This document shows, piece by piece, positions 1-9,440 of a stretch of DNA of 64,000 bases; the stretch's first letter is position 1, and each line of letters begins with the position of its first letter. Source of the DNA: Rhodoferax sp. (lineage in GTDB: Bacteria; Pseudomonadota; Gammaproteobacteria; Burkholderiales; Burkholderiaceae_C); the NCBI GenBank assembly GCA_030682475.1, contig JAUXOA010000028.1:1-64000 (forward strand), given 5' to 3'. Below the pieces are notes generated by a model. The model saw only the letters and a list, made by a program, of their open reading frames with translations, was not told where the DNA came from and searched no databases. The translations under genes were made by a program, and so were the position numbers.

Positions 1-1454
1 CCGACGATCGGCAACGAATCCAGAACGACCAGCCGCTCGGGCGCCTTGTACTGAGCGAGCCCTTGGCCACCCAAATGCTGCCGCAACGTCTCGAGGTCGG
101 GCGGCCGTGTTCCCGGCGGAGGGACTACGCACGCGCATATGCGCTCGCCGAGCACCGAGTCCGGAACACCAATCACTGCAACCTGTGCGACCTCGGGATG
201 GGTGCGCAGCAAAGCCTCGATCTCGGCCGGACTCACTTTGTCTCCGCCCCGCACAATCATTTCCTTTAACCGCCCCACGATGACTACGTTGCCGCTGTCG
301 TCGAGCGACGCCAGGTCTCCCGTATGGAACCAGCCGTCGCGCCATGCCTGACGTCCTTCCTCGCCTAGAAAGCCGTTCACGCAACAGGGGCCGCGCCCGA
401 TCAGCTCGCCCACCTGACCCTGGGGCACGTTGTCGCCCCCGCCGTCTACGATTCTCATCTCGGTACCACCTCGTGGCAGACCAACCGTGCGATGACGCAC
501 TGCCGCGGGGGCGTCCGGATGCGGCGCCGCCCAGCCACCGAAATCGGAGCCGCCGTACGTCGATACGACAATCCCGCGCGTGCGTGCTTCCAAGTCCTCG
601 GCCAGCGTAGGCGGCAGCACCGAACCCGCCGTGTACCAGATCCGTACTGTGGAAGTGTCGCCGCCATGGAGCTTGGCTGCCAGCATGGCGAGTTGCGCCG
701 GCGTTCCGCAAACAATCGTCGCATGCGTGCTTTGAATCAAAGCAAGAGCGGCGTCGGTCCCGAATTGCGGCATTGCGACCACGCATGAGCCGGCCACCGG
801 CGCGGCGAGCCAAGCGGCCCTGGCCGGCCCCGTACCGGGAGACAGCACGAGGATAACGTCATCAGCCGTCAATCCAAGCAGTTGCGCCTGCGCATGGGCG
901 CGCTCGCAAGCTGCCGCAAGTGTATAGATCGCCAGCTTGGGAATCCCTTCGGAGCCCGTTGTCGGCAGTGCATGCACGGGTTCTTCAAGCCGCATCGCAG
1001 CACACGCGTCCGCTTGCGGTCCGTCCAGGCGGAGCAGCCCCTCGTCCGGCACCGTGACGCGCAGCGGTTCGAGACCGAGCTGGCCGCAAATCTCGTCTGC
1101 TTCGGCGCTGTAGTCACGACCCCTGAAGCGCCCTTTTGTCACCAACACGGTCGGCCGCACGCGCCCGGCAATTGATGTCAGCTCGCGCTTTCCCTGGCTC
1201 GCCGACACCGGAACCCAGAACAATCCCGCCTGCTCGCACGCCAGCCGCACCAGATACCACTCAAGGCAATTCGGCAACCACCCGAGGACCGGTGTACCGC
1301 GCGGGAGTCCGCGGCTCAGGAACCAGCCTGCCGCCCGGTCCATCCAGGACTTGACCTCAAGCCAGGTAAGCGCGGTGTGGCCGTCGGTCAGCGCCGTGGC
1401 CGCCGGCCGCTCGCGCGCTTGCCGGGCGACGGCCTCGGTGATGGTTTCGATCAC
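1..1454 (-). CDS. Acyl/aryl-CoA ligase of the AMP-forming family, 3' end outside the window
   Basis: Adenylate-forming (ANL superfamily) ligase expected to activate a carboxylic acid with ATP and join it to CoA in the cytoplasm. The frame is open for 484 codons from a GTG at 1454 to the left edge. Visible motifs are a P-loop variant TTGSEGIPK (residues 165-173; the usual form is SGSTGxPK), an A5 motif YGGSD (300-304), TGDLA (378-382) and the hinge region GRLKEMIVRGGDK (394-406). The C-terminal catalytic lysine lies beyond the window. The GTG overlaps the stop of the 99-aa gene by 4 nt (GTGA), implying translational coupling in one operon with the UbiD decarboxylase. The decarboxylase partner makes an aromatic or unsaturated acid the likely substrate; this is inference. 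The identity of the acid cannot be read from the sequence. Confidence 0.85.
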   Translation of the reverse strand, partial: MIETITEAVARQARERPAATALTDGHTALTWLEVKSWMDRAAGWFLSRGLPRGTPVLGWLPNCLEWYLVRLACEQAGLFWVPVSASQGKRELTSIAGRVRPTVLVTKGRFRGRDYSAEADEICGQLGLEPLRVTVPDEGLLRLDGPQADACAAMRLEEPVHALPTTGSEGIPKLAIYTLAAACERAHAQAQLLGLTADDVILVLSPGTGPARAAWLAAPVAGSCVVAMPQFGTDAALALIQSTHATIVCGTPAQLAMLAAKLHGGDTSTVRIWYTAGSVLPPTLAEDLEARTRGIVVSTYGGSDFGGWAAPHPDAPAAVRHRTVGLPRGGTEMRIVDGGGDNVPQGQVGELIGRGPCCVNGFLGEEGRQAWRDGWFHTGDLASLDDSGNVVIVGRLKEMIVRGGDKVSPAEIEALLRTHPEVAQVAVIGVPDSVLGERICACVVPPPGTRPPDLETLRQHLGGQGLAQYKAPERLVVLDSLPIV

Positions 1455-1750
1455 TCCCGTTCTGCCAGTTCCATCGCATCGAAGAAGTCGCTGTACGGGA
1501 CCGCTTTGAACGTCTCGGGCAACTCCGCGACTATGCGCACGCTGCACGGTTGCGGATCCTTTAACCCGACTACCGAGCGGATCCATAGTACCGGCTCGCC
1601 GGGACGAGGCGGCCGGGACACCACCGCCCGAACGTTCAGGCCGCGGTATTTCTGACGGCCGGGAGTGAGATCGCGCAGCGTCATCACGCACTCACGACCC
1701 GAGAGGACTCGCGCGGCATCCCGTAAAAAAGTTTCGTATTCATTTGCCAT
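1451..1750 (-). CDS. Unknown 99-aa protein between UbiD decarboxylase and CoA ligase
   Basis: I do not recognise this family. The start ATG at 1750 was chosen because AAGGAGA sits about 6 nt upstream; an in-frame start further upstream has no such site. The protein is soluble, acidic at its C-terminus, has no signal peptide or membrane segment, and has a basic and proline-rich centre (VVSRPPRPGEP). It is 17 nt downstream of the UbiD gene and its stop overlaps the ligase start by 4 nt, so it is surely co-translated with them. It does not resemble the small cysteine-rich D subunit (VdcD/ShdD type) of hydroxyarylic acid decarboxylases, since no CxxC pairs are present. A role as accessory subunit or substrate-delivery factor for the decarboxylase is a guess from position. 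Confidence 0.75.
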   Translation of the reverse strand: MANEYETFLRDAARVLSGRECVMTLRDLTPGRQKYRGLNVRAVVSRPPRPGEPVLWIRSVVGLKDPQPCSVRIVAELPETFKAVPYSDFFDAMELAERE

Positions 1751-1767
1751 TCTGTTTCTCCTTGAAG

Positions 1768-3192
1768 TCACAACCCAAGCGATTTATAGCGTTCCAGAAC
1801 GCGCTTTTGCACATCGGGCGAATACATCGCATCGAGCGTCGCGCGTATTGGCGTAGATTCCCGCGGCCATTCCGGGGGCCAGGTCGAGTCAAATGCGACG
1901 GTCGCCCCGGCGCGTGCGACCCTTTCCTCCAGACTGTAGGCCGGTGTCAGCGCATTCGCGCGTCCTTCGTAACGGTGGATGTGCGTGCCACGGTCGGGAT
2001 GACACTTCGTCGCGAATGCGTGGATCACGGCGGACATGTTGAACACGTCGACGTCCTCGTCGACGATGATAATCTTCGACATCAGCGCGCGCCGCGCCGT
2101 CAGGAGCTCAACCACCTGCTGGGCGATCGCTGCCCCGCCGCGACGCACCGAGACGACGGCAAGATGGACCCCGCCCTCGGGGGGAATGTAGACATCGACC
2201 ACCGGCACGCCGTACTTCTCCAGCCGCCGTTTGATCGCGATCGCGCCGGAAATCGAAGTCGTCGTTGCGCTCGAATCCATGAATCCCGTGGTGTCGAGTG
2301 TCAGGATCGGGTTGCGACGATGCGTAATTGCCGTTACACGGGCGCAGATGGCGTTACCCATCTCGCCACTGCGATAGCCCGGGTACTCGCCGTAAGGGCC
2401 TTCCTGTGCGATCCGGTCCCAATAAACCTCGGCTTCGATGACAATTTCGGATGACGCCGGGACGAACAAATCCGATGTCTCGCACTTCACGAGATCGATC
2501 GGGTGCCCACCGAGTCCGCCCGCGAGATCCGCCTCATTACCTGCGATGCGAAATGTAGCAGCCGCCGCAATATGACTCGGCAAATCGGCTCCAATCACGA
2601 TCGCGATCGGCATCGGTTTCCCGCGCGGAACGTAGCCTTCGAGCAGCATCTTGCCCAAATGGCTGGTTGGCCGCGGATACCCGGTTAGCAGCCGCTCGTT
2701 GTGGATCATGAACCGGTACATGCCCCAGTTCACCCAGTCCGTGTTGGCGTCTTTTGAGACGACCAGGTCCCATGTGCCCAGGTAGCGGCCGCCGTCGCCT
2801 TCATGAACCATGGGCACCGGGAGGTCGAAAAGGTTTACCTTGTCTCCGGAAATGATCACTTCCTTGCATGGACCATCCTTGACGAAGACCGGGGGAATCA
2901 TGTTGCCTTCACGCTCGGCGTACGTTTGATAGAGGTCTCGGAGCGGCGTGTCCGCCGGCAGGTTCAGTCCCACCGCCAGGCGTCTCCAGGTCGCGATCGG
3001 GTTGGTTGCGATGCGCCAATGTGGCGTGTAATCCTTGATGTTGTTGAACATGAACGCCGGACCGTTCCGTTCGCAACTGAGGCGACCGATTCCGGACAGC
3101 TCCTGGTCCCAATCAACCTGATCGTCGATCGTGACAAGGTCGCCTGACGACTGAATGGCAGCCAGAAAGCTGCGGAAATCCTTGTGTGCCAT
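1768..3192 (-). CDS. UbiD-family prenyl-FMN-dependent (de)carboxylase
   Basis: A 474-aa protein of the UbiD family, whose members use prenylated FMN to remove or add CO2 on aromatic, heteroaromatic or alpha,beta-unsaturated acids. The catalytic trio is present: R160 in the NWGMYR segment, and E264 and E269 in EGPYGEYPGY. Their spacing (104 and 5 residues) is the same as R173, E277 and E282 of fungal Fdc1. The length is typical. ATG at 3192 has a good AAGGAG site 6 nt upstream. It is the first gene of an operon with a 99-aa protein and a CoA ligase, and is divergent from an IclR regulator. No UbiX prenyltransferase gene is in the window, so the cofactor must come from elsewhere. The substrate could be a hydroxybenzoate, a phthalate or a CoA thioester such as phthaloyl-CoA; the sequence alone does not decide. 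Confidence 0.9.
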   Translation of the reverse strand: MAHKDFRSFLAAIQSSGDLVTIDDQVDWDQELSGIGRLSCERNGPAFMFNNIKDYTPHWRIATNPIATWRRLAVGLNLPADTPLRDLYQTYAEREGNMIPPVFVKDGPCKEVIISGDKVNLFDLPVPMVHEGDGGRYLGTWDLVVSKDANTDWVNWGMYRFMIHNERLLTGYPRPTSHLGKMLLEGYVPRGKPMPIAIVIGADLPSHIAAAATFRIAGNEADLAGGLGGHPIDLVKCETSDLFVPASSEIVIEAEVYWDRIAQEGPYGEYPGYRSGEMGNAICARVTAITHRRNPILTLDTTGFMDSSATTTSISGAIAIKRRLEKYGVPVVDVYIPPEGGVHLAVVSVRRGGAAIAQQVVELLTARRALMSKIIIVDEDVDVFNMSAVIHAFATKCHPDRGTHIHRYEGRANALTPAYSLEERVARAGATVAFDSTWPPEWPRESTPIRATLDAMYSPDVQKRVLERYKSLGL

Positions 3193-3297
3193 GTACTTCT
3201 CCTTGGGTGGTTGTCGATTGGAGGGTTAAAAAAGACCTCCCATAGAAGCCAAAGTCTATGAGCCAGCTCGATCAGCGTCAATGAATTCGTATATATT

Positions 3298-3312
3298 GTG
3301 CGGATACCGAAC
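3298..3312. promoter_or_regulatory. Candidate IclR-type operator
   Basis: GTGCGGATACCGAAC is an imperfect palindrome (GTnCGGnTnCCGnAC). Its complement GTTCGGTATCCGCAC matches 12 of 15 positions of the operator reported for PcaU/PobR-type IclR regulators (GTTCGATAATCGCAC, from memory). It lies in the 161-bp divergent gap between the UbiD operon and the iclR-like gene, about 41 bp before the latter's start, so it could control both directions. The site is inferred; no binding data. Confidence 0.5.
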
Positions 3313-3353
3313 TATTTCGACGTCAGCACACCTGTGTTTGAAAGCGGCCTGCA

Positions 3354-4112
3354 ATGAGCAATGAAGAAAAAGAGTACATCCTGGGCCTGGAAAAGGGGCT
3401 CTCCATCATTGAGGCGTTCGGTCTCAAAAAATCCCCTTTGACGCTCAGCGAGGCGGCAGAGATTACCGGCCATACCAAGGCCGCCACGCGCAGGTGCCTG
3501 CTCACACTGGTCAAGCTGGGCTATGCCACGCAGGAAGGCCGGCATTTTTCCCTCGCACCCCGTGCACTCAGACTGGGGCATGCCTATGTGTTATCCATTC
3601 CTCTGACAAGGGTTGCGCAGCCCATTCTTGAGTTGACGAGCGAGCGCACGCAGGAGTCGTCGTCACTGGCCGTGCTCGACTCGCAAGATGTTGTGTTCGT
3701 CGCCCGCTCCACGCACCGGCGCAGCCTGTCCTTCGGGCTGGGCGTCGGCGCACGCTTGCCGGCCTACTGCAGTGCGACTGGCAGGGTGCTGCTGTCCGCG
3801 CAACCGACTGCAGACGTTGAGTTCATGCTTAATCGCATGTCGCGTTCCGCGCTGACCCCCAAAACGCAGACCAGCGTCATCAATGTGATGAAGGAGATTG
3901 CCAATGCCCGTGAGCGCGGTTTTGCCCAGGTCGATGAAGAGCTTGAAATCGGAGTGCGCTCTATTGCGGTTCCCGTGCGCAACTCGCGTGGCGAGATGAT
4001 TGCTGCGATGAGTTTGTCAGTCGCTACAGCACGCATGACTCACCGCGAGGTCCATGACAAATTGTTGCCTGAACTCGAAGCAGCGCGTCGAACATTTGCG
4101 GCGCTGCTGTGA
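3354..4112 (+). CDS. IclR-family transcriptional regulator
   Basis: A 252-aa protein with the IclR layout: an N-terminal winged helix-turn-helix (about residues 8-65, including LTLSEAAEITGHTKAATRR) and a C-terminal effector-binding domain with the conserved tail region RGFAQVDEELEIGVRSIAVPV. The length is normal. PcaR/PobR-like members respond to aromatic acids and can activate or repress divergent catabolic genes. It faces away from the ligase/99-aa/UbiD operon across 161 bp that hold an IclR-like palindrome, so it most likely controls that operon and itself. The effector is unknown. Confidence 0.9.
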   Translation: MSNEEKEYILGLEKGLSIIEAFGLKKSPLTLSEAAEITGHTKAATRRCLLTLVKLGYATQEGRHFSLAPRALRLGHAYVLSIPLTRVAQPILELTSERTQESSSLAVLDSQDVVFVARSTHRRSLSFGLGVGARLPAYCSATGRVLLSAQPTADVEFMLNRMSRSALTPKTQTSVINVMKEIANARERGFAQVDEELEIGVRSIAVPVRNSRGEMIAAMSLSVATARMTHREVHDKLLPELEAARRTFAALL

Positions 4113-4149
4113 AGATGAAGTCGCCTCACAACTGATTTGAAACGTTGTG

Positions 4150-4187
4150 CCGGGCCTGGCTGCTGCTGCCGCAGAGGCCAGGCCCGG
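4150..4187. terminator. Strong hairpin after iclR-like gene
   Basis: CCGGGCCTGGC (4150-4160) and GCCAGGCCCGG (4177-4187) are perfect 11-bp inverted arms around a 16-nt loop, in the gap between convergent transcripts. No T-run follows on either strand, so it is a stem that may slow polymerase or protect mRNA ends rather than a classical Rho-independent terminator. Confidence 0.45.
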
Positions 4188-4212
4188 GCGCAGAGCTACC
4201 CGGGCAGGCCGC

Positions 4213-4366
4213 CTATTTACCGCTGATCGCCAGCAGCTCGACTTCAAACAGCAGTGTGGCGTTGGGCGGAATCACGCCACCGGCGCCACGTTCGCCATAG
4301 ACTATCAACGCGGGGCAGGGTTGCCAGAGTGGTGGCGAGGGTGGCAACGCGGAGAACTGTTTTCAT
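4213..4366 (-). pseudogene. Remnant of a secreted FKBP-type peptidyl-prolyl isomerase
   Basis: Read on the minus strand, ATG at 4366 starts a signal-peptide-like stretch ([17 protein letters not shown]). The sequence then moves to another frame encoding [19 protein letters not shown] followed by [13 protein letters not shown] and a TAG stop. The second part is the last strand and tail of FKBP-domain PPIases (YGxRGxGGxIPPNATLxFEVELL). The central body of the domain, around 80 or more residues, is missing and the two pieces are out of frame, so this is an internally deleted gene and not expected to be functional. The neighbouring htpG is read in the same direction from the other side. Confidence 0.7.
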
Positions 4367-4398
4367 GAGAGCTTGCTGGGTTGGTTAGTAAGAGCGCT

Positions 4399-6318
4399 TT
4401 AAACCAGCAGCGCATTGACCCGTTTCACATAAGCCGCCGGGTCGGCCGGCAGACCGCCTTCGGCCAGCAGCGCCTGATCAAACAGGATGTGCGCCAGGTC
4501 GTTGAAGTGCACCGAGCCGTCGAGTTTTTTCACCAGCGGGTGTTCGGCATTCACTTCCAGCACCGGTTTGACATCCGGCGCACTCTGTCCGGCCTGCTTG
4601 AGCATGCGCGCCAGTTGCGTGCTCATGCCGTGGTCCTGCACCACCAGGCAGGCGGCGCTGTCCACCAGGCGGGTGGTGACGCGCACGTCTTCGGCCTTGT
4701 CTTTCAACGCTTCCTTGAGCTTGGCCAGCAAGGGTTTGAAGGCCTCGGCGGCTTCTTCGGCAGCTTTTTTCTCGGCCTCGTCCAGCAGGCTGCCCAGGTC
4801 CACAGCGCCTTTGGCTACGGACTGCAACGGCGTGCCGTCAAAGTCGTGCAGGTAGTTCAGTGCCCATTCGTCCACGCGGTCGGTCATCAGCAGCACTTCG
4901 ATGCCTTTTTTCTTGAACACTTCAAGCTGCGGGCTGTTCCTGGCGGCCGTAGACGTGTCGGCGGTGATGTAGTAGATCGACTCCTGGCCTTCCTTCATGC
5001 GCGCCTTGTAGTCGGCAAAACCGACGCTCACGCTGTCGTTCGTGCTGGAAGCAAAGCGCAAGAGCTTGGCCAGCCGTTCCTTGTTGCCAAAGTCCTCGCC
5101 CAAGCCTTCCTTGAACACGGCGCCAAATTCGGCGTAGAAGCTTGCAAACTTTTCCGGTTCGTTGGCGGCCAAGTCTTCGATCATCGACAGCACACGCTTG
5201 GTGCAGCCTTCGCGAATGGCTTTCACGTCGCGGCTTTCCTGCAGCAGTTCCCTGGATACGTTGAGTGGCAGGTCGGCCGAGTCCAGCACGCCTTTGACAA
5301 AGCGCAGGTAGGTGGGAAGGAGCGCCTCGGCGTCGTCCATGATGAAGACGCGTTTGACGTAGAGCTTGACGCCGGCGGATTTCTCGCGGTTGTACAAATC
5401 GACCGGCGCCTTGGACGGGATGTACAGCAATTGCGTGTACTCGGTGCTGCCCTCCACGCGGTTGTGGGTGTAGGCCAGCGGCGCGCCAAAATCGTGGCTG
5501 ATCTGTTTGTAGAACTCGGTGTACTGCTCGGGCGTGATGTCCTTCTTGGCACGGGCCCAGATGGCGTTGCCCTTGTTGACGCTTTCCCACTCGCCGGTCT
5601 TGACCATGGCGCCGGGCTGGCGACCGCCGTTTTCATCGCTCGGGTTGATCAGCTCGCCGTCTTTCCACTCTTCCTTTTCCATCAGGATCGGCAGGCTGAT
5701 GTGGTCGGAATACTTGGCGATGATGCCCTTGACTTTCCAGGCGCTGGCGTAGTCCATCGCGTCTTCGCGCAGGTGCAGGGTAACGCTGGTGCCGCGTGCA
5801 GTGCGCTCAATGGTCTCGACCTCAAAGTCGCCAGCACCGCCGCTGATCCAGCGCACGCCCTCGTCAGCTTTCATGCCGGCGCGGCGCGACTCGACCGTGA
5901 TTTTGTCGGCCACGATGAAGCCGGAATAAAAACCGACGCCAAACTGGCCAATCAGTTGCCCTTGCTCGGAAACATTGGCCTTCTGGTCGCCCGAGAGTCT
6001 GGACATAAAGTCTTTGGTGCCGCTTTTGGCAATCGTTCCCAGGTGCTCGATCGCTTCCTGCTGGCTCATGCCGATGCCGTTGTCAGAAATGGTGAGCGTC
6101 CGGGCGGCCTTGTCGAAAGACACCCGTACTTCAAGGTTGGGCGCGTCTTCATAAAGGGCGCTGTTGTCAAGTGCCTCAAAACGCAGCTTGTCGCAGGCGT
6201 CCGATGCGTTGGAGATCAGCTCGCGCAGGAAAATCTCTTTGTTGGAGTACAGCGAGTGGGTGACAAGGTGCAGCAATTGCGCAACTTCGGCCTGGAAGGA
6301 AAGGGTTTGCTTGGTCAT
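4399..6318 (-). CDS. htpG: Chaperone HtpG (bacterial Hsp90)
   Basis: ATP-dependent cytoplasmic chaperone of the Hsp90 family, 639 aa from ATG 6318. That start gives [12 protein letters not shown], the usual N-terminus; the upstream in-frame ATG at 6357 would add 13 unrelated residues. The GHKL ATPase motifs are present: [11 protein letters not shown] with the catalytic Glu, DNGIGM, and [10 protein letters not shown] middle domain and a C-terminal dimerisation domain follow. The length matches the family. A sigma-32-like promoter lies 60-90 nt upstream, consistent with heat-shock control. A long open frame on the opposite strand is only a codon-bias shadow. Confidence 0.97.
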
Positions 6319-6380
6319 ACTGGTATTGAAGTTTTTGAAAACAGAAGGCCTGCGCATGAAACCGCGACGGGCCAGACCAA

Positions 6381-6407
6381 ATTATGGGCGCATCAGCGCG
6401 TTTCAAG
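6381..6407 (-). promoter_or_regulatory. Candidate sigma-32 (heat shock) promoter of htpG
   Basis: On the minus strand CTTGAAA (6407-6401) is followed 11 nt later by GCCCATAAT (6389-6381), a close match to the RpoH consensus CTTGAAA and CCCCATnT. The position, about 63 nt before the htpG start codon, fits a promoter with a short leader. HtpG is a classical sigma-32 target. Confidence 0.65.
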
Positions 6408-6529
6408 CCCGTAGCGGGTTTTACGGGTGGTTTTATCGCTCGCGGCTCGCGGTTGAGTTATTGGAGGCGGCTGCAATCAGATATATTATTGCGACGGCGT
6501 AAAAGTCATACAAAGAAGGAGGAAACATC

Positions 6530-7246
6530 ATGACGGTTCCCAAACCCGATCCTGCGCTGGTTGAAAAACTGGCCATTGCCAATCGCATTCTTTACGACCA
6601 GGGTGTCGTCGACGGTTTCGGTCACATTAGCGTACGTCACGACAAATCGCCCGCGCATTTCCTGTTGTCATGCAACCGCGCGCCCGGTCTGGTCAGCGCC
6701 GGGGATATCCTGAGCTATGACCTCAATGGCGACCTGGCGGTGGCGTCTGACAAGCGCTCTTACCTTGAGCGCTTCATTCACAGCGAAATCTACAAGGCCC
6801 GCCCCGACGTGGTGGCCGTGGTTCATAGTCACTCGCAAAATGTGATTCCGTTTGGTGCCACGGGCCAGCGCCTGCGGCCGATTTTTCACATGAGCGGCTT
6901 TCTGGGCAGCGGCTCTGCGCTGTTTGAGATCCGTGATGCCGGCGGCAACACCGATATGCTGATTCGCGACAGCGGCCTGGGCAAGGCACTGGCGCAATCA
7001 CTGGGCCAGCACAACTGTGTACTGATGCGCGGCCATGGCTCCACCACCGTGGCGCCCTCCATTGAACTGGCGGTGTACCGGGCTATTTATGCAGAGGTGA
7101 ATGCCAAGCTGCAACTCCAGGCCGCAGCGCTCGGCCCCATCAACTTTTTGAATGAAGAAGAAGCCGCACTGGCCGCCGCCAGCACGGAAGGACAGGTCGT
7201 GAGGGCCTGGGACTTGTGGTGCCAGCGGATTGCACCGATCGAGTAA
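6530..7246 (+). CDS. Class II aldolase/adducin family protein
   Basis: A 238-aa zinc-dependent aldolase-fold enzyme related to L-fuculose-1-phosphate aldolase. The expected metal ligands are present: H99 and H101 in VVHSHS and H169 in MRGHG. A catalytic Glu candidate is E80 in YLERFIH. ATG at 6530 has a very strong AAGGAGG site. It lies 37 nt upstream of a TctC-type receptor gene in the same direction, a pairing that suggests catabolism of the imported carboxylate. Members of this group can act as aldolases, epimerases or decarboxylases of hydroxy-acids, so the reaction is left open. Confidence 0.85.
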   Translation: MTVPKPDPALVEKLAIANRILYDQGVVDGFGHISVRHDKSPAHFLLSCNRAPGLVSAGDILSYDLNGDLAVASDKRSYLERFIHSEIYKARPDVVAVVHSHSQNVIPFGATGQRLRPIFHMSGFLGSGSALFEIRDAGGNTDMLIRDSGLGKALAQSLGQHNCVLMRGHGSTTVAPSIELAVYRAIYAEVNAKLQLQAAALGPINFLNEEEAALAAASTEGQVVRAWDLWCQRIAPIE

Positions 7247-7283
7247 ATCCGGGTACTTGTAGTTAAAGAAATTGGAGACGCTC

Positions 7284-8258
7284 ATGTTGCTACGCACACT
7301 CTTGAGTTTGATCGGCCTGGTCGCTGTCGCCCACCTTGCAGCGCCGCTGGCCTGGGCCGATACCTATCCGTCGCGCTCCGTCAGGATCATTGTTCCTTAC
7401 GGCACCGGGGGTGGCTCCGACGTGCTGGCGCGCCAGATCAGCGCGCGGCTGCAAACCATCTGGGGCCAGGGCATTGCGGTGGAGAACCGGGCCGGGGCCT
7501 CGGGCAATATCGGTACCGAGGCGGTGGTGAGGTCCCCGGCAGACGGCTACACACTGCTGCTGCAAAACAGCACGATGGTGGTCAATCCGGCCGTGGCAGG
7601 CAAGCTCAATTACGACCCTGAAAAAGACCTGACCCCCATCATGCTGCTGGGCCTGACGCCGATTGCACTGGTCGCCCACCAGAGCAGCAACATCAAGACG
7701 CTCAAAGAGCTGGTGGATTACTCCAAAGCCAACCCGGCGGCCCTGAGTTACGGCTCCTGCGGCATAGGCACGCCGCAGCATTTTGTGATGGAGCTGGTCA
7801 AACAGAAGTCGGGCGTGAACGCCACGCACGTGGGCTACAAGGGTTGCGCGCCGGGCCTCACCGACGTCGTGGGCGGGCAGGTTCCGCTGGCCATCCTCAG
7901 CGCCAATCTGGTGGCGCCACACATCAAGACCGGCAAACTCAATGGCATTGGCGTGTCGACGGCCGGGCGTTATCAGCTGATGCCGCAAATCCCCTCGTTT
8001 GAAGAACAGGGGCTGAAGCCTCTGGATTTTTCCATCTGGTTCGCGCTGATGGGGCCGGCTAAATTGCCGCCGGAGACGGTGGCCCGCATTTATGCAGACG
8101 TCCAAAAAGTGCTGGCTGAGCCTGCCATCAAGGAAAATCTCTCCAGTGCGGGGGTTGAACCGTACGCAGGCAATGGCGCCGACCTGGCCAAACTCATCAA
8201 GTCTGATCTTGCACGCTATGCCCATCTGGCCAAATCAGCCAACATCAAGGCGGAGTAA
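7284..8258 (+). CDS. Periplasmic TTT-type solute receptor (Bug/TctC family)
   Basis: Extracytoplasmic receptor of the tripartite tricarboxylate transporter family, 324 aa, with a signal peptide ending near AWA in the first 26 residues. Family signatures are YPSRSVRIIVPYGTGGGSD near the mature N-terminus and ENRAGASGNIGTE. ATG 7284 is preferred over the TTG at 7272 because GGAG lies 6 nt before it. It follows the class II aldolase gene. No TctA/TctB membrane genes are in the window, as is usual for Bug receptors, which occur as large orphan families in Burkholderiales. The ligand is unknown, probably an organic acid. Confidence 0.92.
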   Translation: MLLRTLLSLIGLVAVAHLAAPLAWADTYPSRSVRIIVPYGTGGGSDVLARQISARLQTIWGQGIAVENRAGASGNIGTEAVVRSPADGYTLLLQNSTMVVNPAVAGKLNYDPEKDLTPIMLLGLTPIALVAHQSSNIKTLKELVDYSKANPAALSYGSCGIGTPQHFVMELVKQKSGVNATHVGYKGCAPGLTDVVGGQVPLAILSANLVAPHIKTGKLNGIGVSTAGRYQLMPQIPSFEEQGLKPLDFSIWFALMGPAKLPPETVARIYADVQKVLAEPAIKENLSSAGVEPYAGNGADLAKLIKSDLARYAHLAKSANIKAE

Positions 8259-8310
8259 GCGCAGCGACTTGGGCCGCATCATTTGGCATAGTGGACATCC
8301 GACATCCCGG

Positions 8311-8516
8311 TATCAGTTGGGGACAGAGCTGGCAGACAACCAACATCCCGTTTCAAGTTGAGGACAGAGCTGGTTCGCTTCGCGTAACTGCGGTCTGTCC
8401 CACAATCTGTTCGGCTTGTAGCTGCGGTCTGTCCCACAATGTGACTTCCAACATCCAGGTATCAGTTGAGGACAGAGCTGGTTCGCTTCGCGTAACTGCG
8501 GTCTGTCCCACAATGT
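8311..8516. repeat. REP-like palindromic repeat cluster (GGACAGA...TCTGTCC)
   Basis: Two nearly identical units (about 8356-8406 and 8464-8515) each run from GTTGAGGACAGAGCTGG through TTCGCTTCGCGTAACT to GCGGTCTGTCCCACAAT, with GGACAGA and TCTGTCC as outer arms. A partial unit (8311-8332, GTTGGGGACAGAGCTGG) and an isolated right arm (about 8421-8441) are mixed in. The last copy ends at the stop codon of the RluF-like gene. Related copies occur at 10324 and 63541. Such TTGGGGACAG elements are known as REP sequences linked to RAYT (Y1 HUH) transposases, none of which is in this window. Confidence 0.75.
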
Positions 8517-9440
8517 TTAGAATTTCTCATGCGGCGCCAGGTAGCGCCACTGACCCACTGGCAGATTGCCCAGCATCACATTGCCGATGCGAACGCGTTT
8601 AAGGCCCACCACTTTCAGGCCGACCAGTTCGCACATGCGGCGAATCTGGCGTTTTTTGCCTTCGGTTAACACCACGCGCAGTTGCTCGGGGTTTTGCCAG
8701 CTAACCTTGGCCGGTTTCAGGGCCTGGCCGTCCAGGCTCAGGCCGTGGCGCAAGCGGGCCAGCATCGCCGGTGGAAAGACGGCTTGCACATTGGTGGTGA
8801 TGGGGTCGTCATCGTCGATGCGCTGAAGCTGGCTGGGATGGGGGTCAAGCTGGTTCAAGCCGGTCGGACTCAGACCGAGATACACCACCCGTACCAGGTA
8901 TTCCTTTTCCATCACAGCGTCTTCGCCAATCAGTTGACGCGCCACGCGGCCGTCCTGCGTGAGAACGAGCAGGCCAATCGAATCAATGTCCAGGCGTCCG
9001 GCAGGCACCAGGCTTTGCAGTTGCTTGGGGTGAAAAAAGAAGCGCGCGTTGTCCTCGGCCCAGCGGTTTTGTGGCTGGATCAGGGTGATGGCGGGCAGGT
9101 GACCGTCTTCGGCCTGGCCGCTCACAATCCCGATTGGCTTGTTGAGCAAAATCGTGACCTGGTTGGCCTGCTGGCCTTGGGCCTGCTTGCTCACCTCAAT
9201 GCGCACATCCGGTGTGACCTGCATGCCCATGGTAGCGATTTCGCCATTGACCTTGACCCAGCCCCGGCCAATCCAGTCGTCGGCTTCGCGGCGCGACGCC
9301 ATTCCCAGCTCGGCCATGCGCTTGTTCAGGCGCAGGGTGCCGTTGGCGGTGGCTGTACCCGCACCAGCCGTGGTGGACGGCGTCCGGCCGGGGGGTGCTG
9401 CGGCGCGGCGAAACATGGGAGGGTTGTGGGAGTCTGTCAT
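8517..9440 (-). CDS. 23S rRNA pseudouridine synthase, RluF/RsuA type
   Basis: A 307-aa enzyme that isomerises a uridine to pseudouridine in structured RNA. The order is a Ser/Thr/Ala/Pro-rich N-terminal leader (about residues 1-35), an S4 RNA-binding domain (RLNKRMAELGMASRREAD), then the RsuA-type catalytic domain with GRLDIDSIGLLVLTQDG holding the catalytic Asp, and the conserved GKKRQIRRMCELVG segment. The closest E. coli relative is RluF, judged by the C-terminal GxWRxL motif and general layout; the exact target U is not provable here. The stop codon abuts a REP-like repeat cluster, and the start is 14 nt from the stop of the upstream Crp/Fnr gene in the same direction. Confidence 0.9.
   Translation of the reverse strand: MTDSHNPPMFRRAAAPPGRTPSTTAGAGTATANGTLRLNKRMAELGMASRREADDWIGRGWVKVNGEIATMGMQVTPDVRIEVSKQAQGQQANQVTILLNKPIGIVSGQAEDGHLPAITLIQPQNRWAEDNARFFFHPKQLQSLVPAGRLDIDSIGLLVLTQDGRVARQLIGEDAVMEKEYLVRVVYLGLSPTGLNQLDPHPSQLQRIDDDDPITTNVQAVFPPAMLARLRHGLSLDGQALKPAKVSWQNPEQLRVVLTEGKKRQIRRMCELVGLKVVGLKRVRIGNVMLGNLPVGQWRYLAPHEKF

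Follow-up and report, generated by a model that had tools for sequence, protein, structure and literature searches.

The window, the 64,000-nucleotide stretch of Rhodoferax sp. DNA analyzed here, begins within a group of minus-strand genes. The most upstream of these (1768..3192, minus strand) encodes a PpcA-like UbiD (de)carboxylase of 474 aa, which matches the domains PF01977, PF20695, and PF20696 and carries the motifs NWGMYR, VKCE, and EGPYGE. A 17-nt gap separates its stop codon from the start of a small gene (1451..1750, minus strand; ATG start, TGA stop) encoding a 99-aa protein of the phenylphosphate carboxylase gamma superfamily. We call this subunit gamma here, though letters vary between papers (ppcG in Azoarcus sp. 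KH32C; the Thauera gene order is given as ppcBCAX, PMC2988823). Two signals claimed for this gene in the original prediction can be read directly from the sequence. A clear AAGGAGA (1757..1763, minus strand) lies 6 nt 5′ of the gamma ATG and probably acts as a ribosome-binding site, and the gamma stop codon shares a GTGA (1451..1454, minus strand), a 4-nt overlap that may couple translation, with the GTG start of an AMP-forming acyl-CoA ligase gene (3..1454, minus strand). The ligase reads in frame from 1454 to 3, with its 3′ end past the window and contig edge. Divergent to the UbiD gene is an IclR regulator of the PcaR/PcaU/PobR subfamily (3354..4112, plus strand), relatives of which also lie divergently at three other loci with this gene pair (G412, L017, and L018). 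The UbiD–IclR intergenic region (3193..3353, no strand assigned) is presumed from its position to contain the promoter or operator. An Rfam search of window positions 1-9000 gave no matches. Beyond the regulator, positions ~4200-4370 on the minus strand resemble by eye what we take to be the remnant of an FKBP-type isomerase gene, with three stops in the single frame tried. At 8383-8511, a GTGGGACAGACCGCAG repeat occurs three times, where none is expected by chance; it is perhaps a dispersed repeat of the window's genome, and a similar peptide motif is found in L030.

The 99-aa open reading frame is a real gene, as had been proposed. A scan of genome contigs identified five relatives with 66-81% identity to the window copy, in metagenome-assembled genomes titled Actinobacteria, Planctomycetota, Betaproteobacteria, Rhodospirillales, and Zoogloeaceae, and a whole-genome search added a sixth in genome G412 (62% identity); each of the six follows the same type of UbiD. 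The seven window-type copies align end to end except at their tails and share the same ATG start, which is why we assign a length of 99 aa in place of the start seven codons earlier, at a GTG, in the mechanical list of reading frames. Relative to the window copy, the homologs show pN/pS values of 0.19-0.34, indicating that the protein is under purifying selection.

Gamma is rare across overlapping samples of genomes drawn at several taxonomic levels. Gamma queries matched 2 of 399 genomes from the order (the window's own genome and one false match), 4 of 369 from the class (its own genome, G412, and two false matches), 2 of 150 from the family (its own genome and G855, which has a ppc-operon gamma), and only its own genome among 398 from the phylum; among 185 relatives of G412, only G412 itself was matched. 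The false matches, in G094, G049, and G564, are in-frame segments of long reading frames of other kinds, named by eye as GGDEF-type, peptidase-like, and phosphoglucomutase-like. In the plasmid collection, the window gamma had no matches at E ≤ 0.01, and the ppc-operon gamma of G412 matched a single record, from Azoarcus KH32C.

Gamma had been described as unassigned and possibly new. This is only partly right, because the protein is a remote match to models of a known family, and it is new only as a diverged branch of that family. Phenylphosphate carboxylase is an enzyme through which some bacteria break down phenol anaerobically. It matches TIGR02725 (phenylphosphate carboxylase gamma) with an E-value of 2.2e-5 (24.4 bits, under the curated cut-off of 135.55) and PF09662 with an E-value of 0.0026 (18.3 bits, under the curated cut-off of 25), and a Pfam search returned nothing besides PF09662. 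Both models are matched at E ≤ 1 by all seven window-type gammas, with best E-values of 4.4e-8 for TIGR02725 and 7.5e-6 for PF09662. Two ppc-operon gammas, from G412 and G855, likewise score under the TIGR02725 cut-off (122.8 and 120.7 bits). Aligning the seven window-type gammas to four ppc-operon gammas with hhalign gave a probability of 96.9% over 77 columns, and nine positions are invariant across all 11 proteins (F8, R26, L28, G31, K34, V44, L55, G62, and P78). The window type differs from the phenylphosphate carboxylase subunit in its low identity (26-29%), in a C-terminal extension of 15-27 residues that the ppc-operon gammas lack, and in having no beta or delta gene found alongside. 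At the level of sequence, membership in the phenylphosphate carboxylase gamma family in a broad sense is well supported; by both cut-off and operon context, gamma would fall outside the TIGR02725 equivalog.

Strand positions in predicted structures were compared as well. The AlphaFold models of the window gamma (pLDDT 76.6; strands 4-8, 20-27, 37-45, 54-58, and 69-76) and the G412 ppc-operon gamma (pLDDT 88.7; strands 3-8, 19-26, 36-44, 52-58, and 68-76) contain five strands in equal order and at matching alignment places, compared without superposition; this agreement is weak evidence because the two predictions used common alignment rows. The window-type model adds a low-confidence C-terminal helix at 89-98. 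A search of PDB folds with either model found no matches at E ≤ 0.001. The best Foldseek candidates, sortases (E-values of 1.2 and 2.6, TM < 0.3), were rejected as relatives, as were the other fold-search candidates (VIA Z ≤ 2.5), and a sequence search of the PDB returned only ribosomal L15 (E 0.15 or worse), which we took as chance.

The constant companion of gamma is its UbiD. In all seven window-type loci gamma lies directly 3′ of a UbiD gene, the other six UbiDs being 76-86% identical to that of the window, and in each of the four ppc operons examined (those of G412, G855, G1257, and, by public annotation, Azoarcus KH32C) it directly follows PpcA; the order UbiD then gamma thus holds at 11 of 11 loci. 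The seven genomes searched for both contain 48 UbiD matches, 2 to 11 each, and nine gamma copies, every one of which adjoins a UbiD by coordinates. These counts support the suggestion that gamma is an accessory subunit, and homologs away from UbiD genes, named in the original prediction as the observation that would refute it, were absent among the genomes searched.

The strongest evidence for the partnership comes from a UbiD tree of 51 rows (54 minus the three weak matches L039, L059, and L060). The 11 gamma-bearing UbiDs form a single clade (support 100/99) that includes none of the 40 other rows, and this clade splits into two sisters, the window type (100/100) and PpcA (100/100). That gamma belongs to one UbiD lineage is therefore well supported by sequence comparison. 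Mirror-distance correlation between UbiD and gamma reaches an r of 0.96 over the 11 pairs; because it is only 0.38 among the seven window-type pairs, we do not count it as support. As a counterweight to a strict alpha-gamma rule, PpcA-type alphas lacking gamma have been reported: Desulfatiglans anilini is described as having ppc alpha with no obvious gamma homolog (PMC6114531), and a NaphS2 cluster is likened to ppcA and ppcB and not to the remaining subunits (PMC2988823). In the same tree, the UbiDs of L014 and L015, from records titled Actinobacteria and Planctomycetota, nest among proteobacterial window-type UbiDs, reflecting either horizontal transfer or mis-binning.

The catalytic motifs of the window-type UbiDs are largely intact. 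All seven carry NWGMYR and EGPYGE, and six, all but L018, carry VKCE. In an alignment to ferulic acid decarboxylase, the three motifs NWGMYR, VKCE, and EGPYGE stand opposite NWSIAR, VKCD, and EGPFGE, and we take their residues to serve as the E-R-E triad and metal ligands. E282, R173, and E277 are named as E-R-E residues in PMC8379154. Phthaloyl-CoA decarboxylase (PDB 8oz5 and 8pmk) is likewise a UbiD, one that acts on an aryl-CoA; the window UbiD was rejected as this enzyme, being only remotely similar: the two entries, at ~56 bits, rank lowest of 40 listed PDB sequences with E ≤ 1e-5.

The ligase is a looser neighbor. Coupling to both UbiD and ligase had been claimed, and the first part stands at all seven loci. 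A ligase of the window's family directly follows gamma at four of the seven, the three others being 67-73% identical to the window ligase. In the remaining three clusters the ligase is of PaaK type; it adjoins gamma in L018 and is separated from it by other genes in G412 and L017. Because ligase type varies among loci while UbiD type does not, we regard the ligase as the less constant neighbor. Tight junctions would nevertheless suit a role for gamma with the CoA ligase, or in passing substrate, as the acid or the CoA thioester, between the ligase and UbiD: the gamma and ligase genes overlap by 4 nt in the window and L014, abut with a 0-nt gap in L015, and would again overlap by 4 nt in L016 if a candidate start is the true one. 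We consider such a role very improbable, as the UbiD upstream stays the same where the ligase is of the other type, and the gene after gamma in all four ppc operons examined is a UbiD, not a ligase.

The remaining genes vary from locus to locus. Some would fit the uptake of acids. G412 has a TAXI-TRAP subunit and L016 a TctC-like protein; L018 encodes an MFS protein whose nearest model is the aromatic acid/H+ symporters, under that model's cut-off. Downstream of gamma in G412 (L011, 3640-8203, minus strand) lie the TAXI-TRAP subunit, a gene that by eye is likely to encode a TRAP membrane protein, and the PaaK-type ligase. In L014, the ligase is followed by the large subunit of a molybdenum hydroxylase (3457-5766, plus strand), with glyceraldehyde dehydrogenase alpha as its best model and a further match to 4-hydroxybenzoyl-CoA reductase alpha, all under cut-off. 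BoxB occurs in six of the seven gamma-pair genomes versus 9 of 185 in the class sample, a biased comparison since the seven were not randomly drawn (the sample includes two of them), and BcrC scores above cut-off in five of the seven.

The first 141 nt of the window, at the start of contig C70 and inside the ligase gene, exactly match positions 1-141 of contig C18 (L032) in the same genome (G000). On C18 the shared stretch is followed by the end of a ligase and then by a gene of a second UbiD lineage, UbiD2 (TIGR00148/VdcC-like), and further along by a TctC-like protein, ring-hydroxylating dioxygenase subunits, a PdxA-like dehydrogenase, and a reductase. This gene set recalls aerobic terephthalate-type operons. 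Joining the two contigs is supported by the 84% identity of the C18 UbiD2 to the UbiD2 beside the pair in L017, though the shared end may be an assembly branch rather than a true join. UbiD2 is found in four of the seven gamma-pair genomes (L017, 8392-9933, minus strand; L032, 293-1759, plus strand; L053; and L046), with close copies only in G000, the genome of L017, and G1255 (L053); the copy in G1253 (L046) is more distant. It adjoins the pair in L017, and likewise in the window's genome if the contig join is correct. As an obligate partner it was rejected, with none in G412, G1254, or G1257.

A published route offers a guide to the pathway. In the isophthalate and terephthalate modules of Syntrophorhabdus and Pelotomaculum, as outlined in PMC9516798, a PaaK-like CoA ligase and a UbiD decarboxylase lead from isophthalate to benzoyl-CoA, and terephthalate-induced candidates are reported to be PpcA-like and UbiD-like; the comparison is by description only, and the passages concerned make no mention of a gamma subunit. 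From this ligase and UbiD route, the terephthalate-induced candidates, and the neighboring genes, we guess at conversion of an aromatic acid or dicarboxylate to an aryl-CoA, the substrate being, with low confidence, either a benzoate with a para substituent or an aromatic dicarboxylate.

The same neighborhoods bear on whether gamma could be a true phenylphosphate carboxylase gamma in a degenerate phenol pathway. The TIGR02725 and PF09662 matches and the sister relationship of the window-type UbiDs to PpcA are what such an origin would produce. Yet G412 and G1257 hold a full beta-delta-alpha-gamma operon as well as the window-type pair, and the other five genomes have one gamma each and no UbiD in the PpcB clade, an absence that is provisional because the genomes are drafts. 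The acid transporters among the neighbors (the TAXI-TRAP subunit and the symporter-like MFS protein) also argue against it. A tblastn search found neither beta nor delta in the window and six other neighborhoods, the window and L014 being cut by contig ends, and no phenylphosphate synthase was seen by eye in the reading-frame lists of these neighborhoods, some cut by contig ends. We give a degenerate phenol pathway hardly any credence.

Small proteins that serve other UbiDs provide further points of comparison. VdcD, of the vanillate/4-hydroxybenzoate decarboxylase VdcCD, is similarly small and has an aromatic-acid UbiD as its partner, and is described in PMC8379154 as essential for VdcC, acting allosterically within a tight complex and touching the E-R-E loops. 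It differs in being a zinc ribbon with two CXXC motifs (PMC8379154), whereas the window gamma has two cysteines (C21 and C69), no CXXC, and no histidine; this agrees with the original prediction that gamma is not the Cys-rich D subunit. With no PDB fold match for the gamma models, a structural hint of a VdcD-like site is absent. The same account states that VdcD, PpcGamma, and LpdD lack sequence similarity to one another (PMC8379154). LpdD has a metal site formed by H35-H61-D63, with the metal said to be non-essential (PMC10865409), and gamma, lacking this site, was rejected as an LpdD. For PhdC, an HpaC-like flavin reductase fold was sought, and neither the fold search (E ≤ 0.001) nor Pfam, with PF09662 alone, returned it.

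The main rival to a structural subunit follows from these helpers. Gamma could be a cofactor chaperone or maturase that carries prFMNH2 from UbiX or aids oxidative maturation and then leaves the active enzyme, as comparable helpers are described for other UbiDs (LpdD, PMC10865409; PhdC, PMC13040415). Residues R26, L28, G31, and K34, invariant in all 11 gammas, together with the nearly invariant Y35, could bind phosphate. This role seems unlikely to us, with the LpdD metal site missing and with gamma tied to one UbiD clade in genomes where a carrier could serve several UbiDs. In addition, the gamma of phenylphosphate carboxylase is reported within the alpha-beta-gamma core, whose CO2 exchange is the joint work of all three subunits (PMC6114531).

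We favor, with a probability of about 0.65, a gamma-type small subunit of a two-component prFMN (de)carboxylase, in which a stand-alone PpcA-like UbiD is joined by a distant phenylphosphate carboxylase gamma homolog, without beta and delta, in a VdcD-like role on a pathway to aryl-CoA. Homology, adjacency within a single clade, and the UbiD motifs are observed; mechanism and substrate are inferred. Gamma would bind UbiD stoichiometrically as a permanent activating subunit and, by analogy with VdcD and VdcC, might hold the loops of the E-R-E catalytic triad or domain closure, with no chemistry of its own. An imported aromatic acid would undergo CoA ligation and ring (de)carboxylation, in either order, and the resulting aryl-CoA would feed benzoyl-CoA pathways.

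An arrangement resembling this two-component enzyme has been described for the putative anaerobic benzene carboxylase, where a PpcA-like UbiD (AbcA), a second subunit (AbcD), a CoA ligase (BzlA), and UbiX are reported to cluster (PMC5852087, PMC13101534). That cluster has a MarR regulator in place of the IclR at the window, and AbcD and gamma are compared by description only. Judged from these cluster descriptions, AbcA-AbcD may be an already-described stand-alone PpcA-gamma pair; the listing of AbcD under 'ppcC' does not establish that it is gamma, because papers differ on ppcC (Thauera ppcBCAX, PMC2988823). Our searches of an open-licence paper collection brought up no other account of a PpcA-gamma pair standing alone.

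More tentatively, and at somewhat less than even odds, the alpha-gamma pair may be a self-sufficient, unnamed type of prFMN (de)carboxylase. It would combine a PpcA-like catalytic chain with a mainly-beta small subunit for which no PDB relative was found, freed from phosphorylation and from beta and delta, and would act on an aryl acid or aryl-CoA feeding benzoyl-CoA oxidation (BoxB) or reduction. If so, gamma would not be specific to phenol but would activate one UbiD lineage in general, and the pair, having no kinase step, beta, or delta, would be a minimal system for measuring the role of gamma directly. For annotation, 'hypothetical' 99-aa genes of this kind that follow UbiD are probably part of the enzyme, which matters for the heterologous expression of UbiD biocatalysts.
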